In this document: positions 1 to 4,517 of the stretch, piece by piece | How the letters are laid out: each line of letters opens with the position of its first letter | Numbering within the stretch: the first letter of the stretch is position 1 | The notes under the pieces: generated by a model | Database searches by the model: none | What the model was told of the DNA's origin: nothing | What the model saw: the letters and a program-made list of their open reading frames with translations, nothing else | Made by a program: the position numbers and the translations under genes | Source: a virus | Virus record (IMG/VR): IMGVR_UViG_3300032294_000207 | Location: 1-33,773 of that record | Direction: 5' to 3' (one strand) | DNA: 33,773 bases

Positions 1-483
1 CTTACAGGCAAGAAAGGCGATAGCTTTGTCAACCAGGCTATGTTAGATGGGATTGAAAGAGAAAGTGCTGCTAGAGAGCTTTATATGCAATCTAAAGGGT
101 TATCTGTAACAGAGGTAGGTTTCTTTGACCATCCTGTTATTAAGAATAGTGGTGCTAGTCCTGACGGTGCTGTAAATGCAGAAGAGGAAGGCAAGTATGC
201 AGGTCTTATAGAGATTAAGTGTCCTATAGAAACAACCCATACTAATACGCTTATGAGTAAGTCAGTTCCTAGTAAATACATTCCACAAATGCAATGGCAG
301 TTAGCTTGTACCGGTGCTAAGTGGGTAGACTTTATAAGTTATAATCCTAACTTCCCTGAAGGAGAACTACAGTTATTTGTAGCAAGGGTTGACAGGGATG
401 ATACTTACATAGGAGAATTAGAAGCAGAAGTTATTAAGTTTTTAGACGAAGTAGACCAAACAATTTTAAAACTAAAGGAGTAG
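1..483 (+). CDS. YqaJ-like viral recombinase/exonuclease, 5' end cut by window
   Basis: Lambda-exonuclease-like PD-(D/E)XK nuclease that would resect double-stranded DNA 5' to 3' and work with the annealing protein at the other window end. The reading frame is open from base 1, so the ATG at base 40 is internal. Counting from base 1, visible family motifs are GIERESAAREL (probable Glu21), SPDG with Asp55, and EIKCP with Glu71 and Lys73, which match the Glu/Asp/Glu/Lys catalytic set of the family. The N-terminal few dozen residues are missing. Its stop is followed 3 bases later by the SSB-like gene, whose ribosome binding site (AAAGGAG) overlaps the end of this gene. I am confident of the family and have no activity evidence. 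Confidence 0.9.
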   Translation, partial: LTGKKGDSFVNQAMLDGIERESAARELYMQSKGLSVTEVGFFDHPVIKNSGASPDGAVNAEEEGKYAGLIEIKCPIETTHTNTLMSKSVPSKYIPQMQWQLACTGAKWVDFISYNPNFPEGELQLFVARVDRDDTYIGELEAEVIKFLDEVDQTILKLKE

Positions 484-486
484 TAT

Positions 487-729
487 ATGGCACAGTATGA
501 CAACACAAACACGTTTACGTTAAACAAGAACGATAAAGGCGATAATCCACGCCGACCAGACTATCGTGGAGAGCTCAACGTTGACGGTATTGAATTTAAT
601 TTATCAGGTTGGGTAAGAGAAGGAGCTAATGGTAAGTTCATTAGTGGTTCTGTATCAATAGTAAAAGCTAAGAGTGAAGTAAGAAGTAAACCTGCTGTTG
701 AAGGTGCAGATGAGGACGTTCCTTTCTAG
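487..729 (+). CDS. Small SSB-like protein with acidic C-terminal tip
   Basis: 80-residue protein of a small phage family usually found beside recombination genes. The centre (YRGELNVDGIEFNLSGWVRE, then GKFISGSVSI) looks like short beta strands of an OB-type fold. The last residues are ADEDVPF, close to the DDDIPF tip with which bacterial SSB recruits partner proteins. The position right after the exonuclease supports single-strand binding in recombination or replication. An AAAGGAG site lies before the ATG. The function is inferred from the tail and the context; residues contacting DNA cannot be identified from the sequence alone. Confidence 0.65.
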   Translation: MAQYDNTNTFTLNKNDKGDNPRRPDYRGELNVDGIEFNLSGWVREGANGKFISGSVSIVKAKSEVRSKPAVEGADEDVPF

Positions 730-755: not shown

Positions 756-827
756 TTACTTGTTCATTACATACATAGTGACTTCAAAGCCAAAACGCAT
801 TTCTGTAACTGCTGGTTTAGTCCACAT
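756..827 (-). CDS. pqqA: PqqA, PQQ precursor peptide (23 aa)
   Basis: Ribosomal peptide from which pyrroloquinoline quinone is made. The translation begins MWTKP, contains FGFEVTMY and ends in a basic residue, as bacterial PqqA peptides do; its length (23) is that of typical PqqA (22-24). Glu15 and Tyr19 form the E-x-x-x-Y pair that the radical SAM enzyme PqqE links on the carrier PqqD. AGGAG (835-839) lies 7 bases before the ATG, and TATAAT lies at 861-866. The gene is antisense between the SSB-like gene and the cell-wall hydrolase and is well below usual gene-caller limits. No pqqB-E genes are in the window, so it would rely on host enzymes. Expression is not shown. Confidence 0.9.
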
Positions 828-860
828 AGTAGATCTCCTTTCTTTTAGATTTATATGTGA

Positions 861-866
861 ATTATA
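861..866 (-). promoter_or_regulatory. Candidate -10 box of pqqA promoter
   Basis: A perfect TATAAT on the minus strand about 34 bases before the pqqA ATG. It would give a short leader containing the Shine-Dalgarno site. The region 17-18 bases further upstream (TTACCC or GTTACC) is a poor -35 match, so the promoter may be weak or activator-dependent. Confidence 0.5.
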
Positions 867-921: not shown

Positions 922-1302
922 ATGGATATGCACCATTTAGAATTAGATATAGCCTGTTACGCTACTGCTGTATATCATGAAGGATCAAGTAATAAATACG
1001 AAAGGATTGGCATTATAAATGTTATACGCAATAGAGTTCGTGATGGTCGTTGGGGTAATTCTGTATGCTCTGTTGTTTATGCTAATGGTCAGTTTATTGG
1101 GGTTACGGATGAAAGTCATAGAGAAGTTAATACTAGGGCGTATTTGGAAACTAAACTTTTGGTTATTGATACGATTATTTTTAATAAATACGCAAATCCA
1201 GTTGCAAATGCTTTATACTTCCATGATGATTCAATACCGCCAAAAAAAGAATGGTTCGGAAAACGAAAGAAAACACACATAGGAAGGATGGTATTTTACT
1301 AA
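922..1302 (+). CDS. SleB-like cell-wall hydrolase
   Basis: 126-residue protein of the Hydrolase_2/SleB family, which cleaves peptidoglycan (lytic transglycosylase-type). Motifs in order: ACYATAVYHEGSS with probable catalytic Glu20, INVIRNRV, CSVVYANGQF, ALYFHDDSIP and the closing IGRMVFY. There is no signal peptide or membrane segment, so a holin or membrane leak would be needed for access to the wall. No clear ribosome binding site is visible; ATG at 928 is an alternative start. It lies in the rightward operon, away from the late lysis genes on the other strand, so it may be the endolysin or a wall enzyme with another timing. Confidence 0.85.
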   Translation: MDMHHLELDIACYATAVYHEGSSNKYERIGIINVIRNRVRDGRWGNSVCSVVYANGQFIGVTDESHREVNTRAYLETKLLVIDTIIFNKYANPVANALYFHDDSIPPKKEWFGKRKKTHIGRMVFY

Positions 1303-2452: not shown

Positions 2453-3190
2453 TTAAATATTAATAAGTGATTCTGTACCGATTTTTTCTTTAGTAGCAGA
2501 TCTAGCCCAAGCACCACAAGATTGACATTGAAACCTTTGAAATACTGATACTCTTGATCTTACTGTGCCACGTTTGTTTAATTTGCGTGAACCGCAATTT
2601 GGACAGCAAGGATTTGCGGAATACGCATTATGGTTAGGATGTTGTTTAATCCATCCTTTAAGTCTGTCATAAAGTTTTTCAAGTAATACAACATCATTCT
2701 TATTGTATTCTTCCATTCTTTTCCATGCTGCACGATCATTATTCATAACTTTTAGCCATAATTCATGGCCTTCATGGTCAGTTTTTTTACCTAATCCTAA
2801 ACGCTGTGATACATAATCTAGTTTATTAGAAACAAATCTAAAATTACTTTTTACTACCCTTAATAAGTCAATATGTTTAACAGGGCTTGGTGGTTGCATT
2901 TTGGCTTCAAGAAACTCTTTGTTGAGCATTGGCATATCAAATCGTAAACCATTATAGTGAACTACTACGTCAGCTTCTTCAATTAATGTATGTATGCTAT
3001 TTAACATACTTTTGCGATCTGTTTTGTAAATAGAATCAAACATGATTTTTGATTCACCATACCATTTAGCTGCGTAGCATAAGGTATAAGATGATTCTAA
3101 GAGTTGATTAAGAGCTACGTTTTGTTGCCAGATACCCCAGACTGTTGCTAAATTTGGCGCACATTCAATATCCAAAAGCAATATCTTCAT
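2453..3190 (-). CDS. DnaQ/RNase H-like 3'-5' exonuclease with C-terminal zinc ribbon
   Basis: 245 residues. DEDD motifs: DIEC (Asp7, Glu9), HYNGLRFDMPML (Asp85), and YNKNDVVLL (Tyr162, Asp166), the layout of DnaQ-type exonucleases of the predicted YprB-like group. The C-terminus carries a zinc ribbon (PCCPNC around residues 195-199 and CQSC at 222-225). It may trim nucleic acid in replication, recombination or host DNA breakdown. AGGAGTAGTT precedes the ATG. It is separated from the lysis genes by 109 bases containing a possible promoter, so it may have its own timing. The fold is clear; the substrate is unknown. Confidence 0.85.
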   Translation of the reverse strand: MKILLLDIECAPNLATVWGIWQQNVALNQLLESSYTLCYAAKWYGESKIMFDSIYKTDRKSMLNSIHTLIEEADVVVHYNGLRFDMPMLNKEFLEAKMQPPSPVKHIDLLRVVKSNFRFVSNKLDYVSQRLGLGKKTDHEGHELWLKVMNNDRAAWKRMEEYNKNDVVLLEKLYDRLKGWIKQHPNHNAYSANPCCPNCGSRKLNKRGTVRSRVSVFQRFQCQSCGAWARSATKEKIGTESLINI

Positions 3191-4176: not shown

Positions 4177-4517
4177 AGTTCAAAAGGATCAAATCCAAAT
4201 TGTTTAGCGACTTTCATTTTAAGTGCTTTAAACTCGCCTTTGTGTGATAAATATTTTTCTGATTTAGGATATTTAATGTATATGATTTGGTGAATCATCT
4301 CATGTAGAAGGGTTGCTATAACTGTATCTAAATGCCCACAGCGACCTTTAGAAATTGTAATGGTATGTGGTTCAGGTGAATATTCACCGTATAGATCAGG
4401 GTTATTACATACCACAAATTCTACACGTTTGGCAGGCGGAAATGGCATAGATGCGAAGGGTTCTATTTGTATAAATGCGGTATATAAAGCTGCTATAGAA
4501 TCTTCGGTAATCCACAT
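4173..4517 (-). CDS. SprT-like zinc metalloprotease
   Basis: 114 residues. LLHEMIHQIIY contains the HExxH zinc site (His72, Glu73, His76) and SHKGEFKALK supplies a third ligand (His92), as in SprT-like domains. The Cys-rich zinc ribbon of longer SprT proteins is absent. In phages such proteins lie near lysis or packaging genes; the substrate is unknown. It directly follows the XhlA-like gene and overlaps the His-rich micro-ORF by 4 bases. Confidence 0.8.
   Translation of the reverse strand: MWITEDSIAALYTAFIQIEPFASMPFPPAKRVEFVVCNNPDLYGEYSPEPHTITISKGRCGHLDTVIATLLHEMIHQIIYIKYPKSEKYLSHKGEFKALKMKVAKQFGFDPFEL

Follow-up and report, generated by a model that had tools for sequence, protein, structure and literature searches.

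Position and identity of the pqqA gene

The window, which is the whole stretch of DNA that we analyzed, spans all 33,773 bases of an IMG/VR virus record. The record encodes a portal protein, tail fibers and a virion structural protein, as well as a YqaJ exonuclease and SSB, an endolysin, a DnaB-type helicase and a DNA methylase; its pqqA gene is thus carried by a real phage. A YqaJ-type recombination exonuclease, whose start is cut by the window edge (1–483, plus strand; PF09588, phrog_149), precedes ssb, which encodes the single-stranded DNA-binding protein (487–729, plus strand; phrog_18154, phrog_7364). An endolysin or cell wall hydrolase is found at 922–1302 (plus strand; PF07486, phrog_938). 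Gene pqqA, which encodes the PQQ precursor peptide, occupies the gap between ssb and the endolysin on the strand opposite to both, such that it is convergent to ssb and divergent from the endolysin gene.

The pqqA ORF comprises 23 codons and a stop codon at 756–827 on the minus strand. Residues Glu15 and Tyr19 of PqqA are those cross-linked by PqqE, and translation showed both in the window peptide, separated by three residues. The product is also a short peptide of the PqqA kind (23 amino acids, in a range of about 22–29), with its own start codon and a ribosome-binding site (AAAGGAG). We compared the peptide with profile libraries using hmmscan. Results showed a match to TIGR02107 (PqqA) at E = 2.2e-12 and 46.5 bits, covering model positions 1–21 of 21 (curated cut-off 20 bits), and a match to PF08042 at E = 2.3e-11 and 43.8 bits, covering positions 1–19 of 19 (curated cut-off 21.1 bits). 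Both scores were more than twice the curated cut-off, and each profile library with a match returned a single family, PqqA in every case; the peptide had no PHROGs family and no PDB match. The PqqA core, written as a degenerate pattern, matched once within the window and was absent from all 100 dinucleotide-preserving shuffles, and a TIGR02107 search of the whole virus record found pqqA once. The 23-codon minus-strand ORF, its Glu15-x-x-x-Tyr19 pair and its identity as PqqA had all been proposed in a sequence-only reading of this DNA; translation bore out the first two, and the two profile matches far above their cut-offs settled the third. We concluded that positions 756–827 hold a real phage pqqA, which is confirmed.

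The gene has signals of its own. The Shine-Dalgarno sequence AAAGGAG (835–841, minus strand) ends 7 nt before the pqqA ATG, and a motif of this kind precedes 224 of the 225 viral pqqA copies examined. Comparison of syntenic relatives pointed to a putative −10 element, TATAAT (861–866, minus strand), which sits 39 nt before the start codon. A −10-type hexamer was found at the same distance from the ATG in 32 of 43 syntenic relatives, and the surrounding columns were ~90% or more conserved. A simple sigma-70 scan of the window did not report a pqqA promoter and found no good −35 element.

RNA folding placed a hairpin at 705–746, where the converging ssb and pqqA transcripts meet at their 3′ ends (folding energies of −22.6 and −22.5 kcal/mol, with z scores of −7.2 and −5.5). 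It spans the ssb stop codon and has no T run after it, and because it overlaps the last ssb codons its conservation is confounded by coding; it is possibly a two-way 3′ end or terminator. So strong a hairpin at the shared end could suggest that what is conserved here is a control element or non-coding RNA between convergent operons, with the ORF incidental. This explanation is hardly credible, given that pairwise differences between viral pqqA copies concentrate at third codon positions (0.35, vs 0.10 and 0.08 at first and second positions), that the peptide matches the PqqA profiles, and that it is found in other contexts in other phages.

Retention and selection in viral relatives

A degenerate pattern built on GFEVTMY was found in at least 120 IMG/VR contigs, and all 120 of the matches listed gave a full-length PqqA with a start codon; a pattern for the N-terminal half of PqqA likewise matched at least 120 contigs. 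Because pattern searches favor conserved copies, we gathered 80 loci through the neighboring ssb protein alone. In 76 of these, pqqA immediately followed ssb and was encoded on the other strand, with Glu and Tyr present in all 76, including two copies with the diverged core GMEITAY. Among the other four loci, two were on contigs that end within 90 bases of ssb. The last two had at first been scored as lacking pqqA, a score that we rejected: in one record pqqA lies elsewhere, and in the other the contig end cuts the gene short. That is, because all four exceptions are accounted for, no evaluable relative was without the gene (78 of 78, one copy being partial). Long records chosen by their portal protein carried pqqA in 5 of 11 cases at 57% identity or more, several of the rest being fragments, and in 0 of 12 cases at 55% identity or less. 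Presence of the gene tracks a sub-lineage, a pattern that probably reflects host range. One phage contig of 36,459 bases (L475, record G046) has two pqqA copies, at 67–129 and 34281–34343, near its two ends.

Purifying selection on viral pqqA is strong. The dN/dS ratio was about 0.10 among 187 distinct viral genes and 0.05 among 106 host genes. The same 187 genes showed no amino-acid change at W2, P5, G13, E15, T17 and Y19, although the constancy from G13 to Y19 is partly imposed by the search pattern. None of the 232 viral and phage copies had lost Glu15 or Tyr19; the search accounts for part of this constancy, except in the ssb-anchored set. As is characteristic of an auxiliary metabolic gene, pqqA is located in a bona fide phage genome, has host peptides identical or nearly identical to its product, and is retained under selection in relatives.

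The gene might instead be a passive host remnant, acquired by transduction and functionless. Capture by transduction should be easy because the hosts carry many pqqA copies. A remnant would hardly be expected to show such strong purifying selection or a conserved Shine-Dalgarno sequence and −10 element, to persist in every syntenic relative that could be evaluated, or to occur in several different genomic neighborhoods, and we consider this origin without function highly improbable.

A functional peptide could also act as a decoy, competing with host PqqA for PqqD/PqqE and thereby lowering or redirecting PQQ. The phages encode the substrate alone, a variant peptide could compete, and positions 4 and 6 of viral PqqA are variable. 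However, the cross-linked residues are kept in every one of the 232 copies, and many phages encode a peptide that does not differ from host PqqA; because of this identity, phage peptides should be ordinary substrates. We therefore judge a decoy to be quite improbable.

Cultured phages and their hosts

We searched 50,697 phage records with the peptide using tblastn. Twelve records matched. Ten of them were genuine, namely the isolates Venkman, P19250A, MEP301, MEP401, MEP402 and four of Melnitz, plus one uncultured phage from Manatee Spring. The nine isolates all infect Methylophilales or Methylophilaceae hosts. Thus, pqqA was present in nine of nine cultured Methylophilaceae phage genomes recovered, with Glu15 and Tyr19 kept, a count that leaves out HIM624-A and the OM43 phages MEP431–434. 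The two discarded matches were both named Acinetobacter phage MD-2021a; the longer record (CAKLQF020000010.1) contains a complete bacterial pqqABCDE operon together with ppk and, because of that operon, was taken to be mislabeled bacterial DNA.

The isolates that carry pqqA represent five or more types of phage (Kyanoviridae, Zobellviridae and others). Venkman, P19250A and the window formed one loose neighborhood group around the gene, whereas the immediate neighbors of pqqA in MEP301, MEP401/402 and Melnitz differed from those of this group. No annotated feature underlies the pqqA match in Venkman, P19250A, MEP301 or MEP401/402, and in the Manatee Spring phage, as in both Melnitz genomes that were inspected, a ‘hypothetical protein’ is annotated over it on the wrong strand. 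These records agree with the earlier suggestion that so short an ORF would be missed by gene calling, and retention of the ORF and of its Glu15/Tyr19 pair, which that reading had put forward as a check, held in both the syntenic relatives and the cultured methylophages.

Genome contigs whose PqqA has the end type GFEVTMY[VI]M came from Methylophilaceae, e.g. Methylotenera, Methylophilus, Methylopumilus and OM43, with some host records titled at a higher rank only. The number of pqqA copies per host genome ranged from 1 to 12, with a median of 3 (20 genomes), in agreement with a previous description of 3–12 copies alongside what is typically a single set of the remaining pqq genes (PMC4109929). 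A PQQ-producing methylotroph has five pqqA copies, three of them stand-alone, which are unequally expressed (PMC9851590). Full-length PqqE was present in 17 of the 20 host genomes. One Methylophilaceae genome of about 1.1 Mb (G082) had one pqqA and no PqqE above the cut-off; it might be incomplete or belong to a host dependent on outside PQQ.

A precursor without its pathway, and its proposed role

Queries for pqqBCDE matched none of 316 viral loci, and the same queries matched 21 of 120 host loci. PqqE was above the cut-off in none of 49 virus records, the window record included. The idea that the phage encodes the precursor only was thereby upheld. Methanol dehydrogenase was found in one of the 49 records. 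That record (G012, 72,356 bases) has a full-length PQQ alcohol/methanol dehydrogenase at 34049–35731 and pqqA at 41890–41952, about 6 kb apart, similar to the arrangement in the Lake Baikal virus VP_266. The window record, which may be incomplete, had no TIGR03075 match and so lacks the pairing with methanol dehydrogenase seen in the Baikal virus.

One PqqA peptide is consumed for each PQQ made; PqqB–E are lasting catalysts. Because only PqqA is consumed, a phage that silences its host would need to replace pqqA alone. We consider it likely, judging from the gene content and conservation described above, that the phage supplies pqqA to host PqqB–E and so keeps PQQ-dependent methanol dehydrogenase charged. 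In detail, we infer that phage pqqA would be expressed independently during infection, that host PqqD/PqqE would bind the phage peptide and cross-link Glu15 to Tyr19, and that host proteases, PqqB and PqqC would then complete PQQ. PQQ would keep reaching methanol dehydrogenase (XoxF/MxaF), the host's main entry point for energy and carbon, and its synthesis, and with it methanol oxidation, would be raised or sustained by the phage peptide while the host enzymes last. This supply of precursor to the host enzymes was also the interpretation of the sequence-only reading; the profile match, the conservation and the precursor-only encoding support it, and the benefit to the phage is an extrapolation from them. 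That reading had named methanol or sugar dehydrogenase as the enzyme that gains. The methanol part stands and the sugar part was dropped, because the peptide type matches that of Methylophilaceae, which narrows the guess to methanol dehydrogenase. In an OM43 strain, xoxF was the top transcript (PMC5120137). The medium used for OM43 in PMC9004378 includes PQQ, which could hide an effect of phage pqqA.

Purified PqqA in a Gluconobacter cell extract is described as giving PQQ at 70–80%, in work cited in PMC9851590. The same paper suggests that PqqB or PqqC may be limiting, which counts against the supply explanation, as does the presence of several pqqA copies in the hosts already. Phage MW202697.1 (Manatee Spring; host not known) also counts against it: tblastn did not detect pqqA in this phage, despite a TerL that is 75% identical to that of MEP402.

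More PQQ could also serve other ends, such as holding a PQQ-bound importer of the outer membrane closed to block superinfection, or acting as a redox protectant. In E. coli, PQQ blocks a phage whose receptor is the importer PqqU (PMC12124388), which makes a superinfection block conceivable. The pairing of methanol dehydrogenase with pqqA in G012, as in the Baikal report, points instead to methanol oxidation, and we regard these other ends as unlikely. Returning to precursor supply for methanol oxidation, we lean toward the broader view that pqqA is a near-core, stand-alone gene of phages of Methylophilaceae (OM43, Methylopumilus and relatives) across unrelated phage groups, in which it would replace the part that runs out. 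The near-core status is proposed because PqqA alone would run out once the host's genes are no longer expressed.

Cyanophage psbA and similar auxiliary genes allow a phage to replace a fast-consumed component of a host energy pathway. Phage pqqA resembles psbA in that a consumed pathway component is carried; psbA encodes a photosystem protein, whereas pqqA encodes a 23-amino-acid cofactor precursor. The stand-alone pqqA copies of methylotrophs (PMC4109929, PMC9851590) encode the same peptide, often identical in Methylophilaceae, and likewise lie away from pqqBCDE, but on a bacterial chromosome rather than in a phage.

Whether viral pqqA had been reported before was left open by the sequence-only reading, and it had: in 2020, pqqA and methanol dehydrogenase were described in Lake Baikal virus VP_266, for which a boost to methanol oxidation was proposed (PMC7678222). 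VP_266 is likewise a Methylophilaceae virus encoding PqqA with a proposed part in supporting methanol oxidation. In contrast to the window, where pqqA stands alone in a much smaller record, VP_266 is a T4-like metagenomic contig with a methanol dehydrogenase, and the window-type gene recurs across cultured phages. Genes pqqA, pqqD and pqqE are also among virus-encoded genes from reservoirs, where they were filed under phosphate solubilization (PMC13188868). Three papers on OM43 phages (PMC9004378, PMC10580990, PMC8024684) make no mention of pqqA. What is new here is how widespread, isolated and overlooked viral pqqA is; its stand-alone prevalence and its presence in isolates appear unreported in the open-licence literature, and an earlier mention elsewhere is possible.

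If the proposed role is correct, phages that infect some of the most abundant methylotrophs in aquatic habitats have in common a metabolic gene of 23 codons, overlooked so far and lost in ordinary gene calling. The isolates turn a metagenomic report into a gene that is testable in cultured phage-host pairs, for example with H5P1 as the host of Venkman or Melnitz. Auxiliary genes might then follow a rule by which the consumed part of a pathway is carried and the enzymes are not, and pqqA could serve as a marker for assigning methylotroph hosts to uncultured phages.

For the alphaproteobacterial type of PqqA, a search of the phage collection gave nothing more than weak matches in Melnitz. Two IMG/VR contigs, both classified as viral, encode a PqqA of this type (MKWSAPIVQEVCVGMEVTSY...) with no pqqB–E nearby, one at 4443–4495 (minus strand) in a virus contig of 265,895 bases (L536) and the other at 2715–2767 (plus strand; L537). 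These contigs could represent host DNA or phages that infect other methylotrophs.
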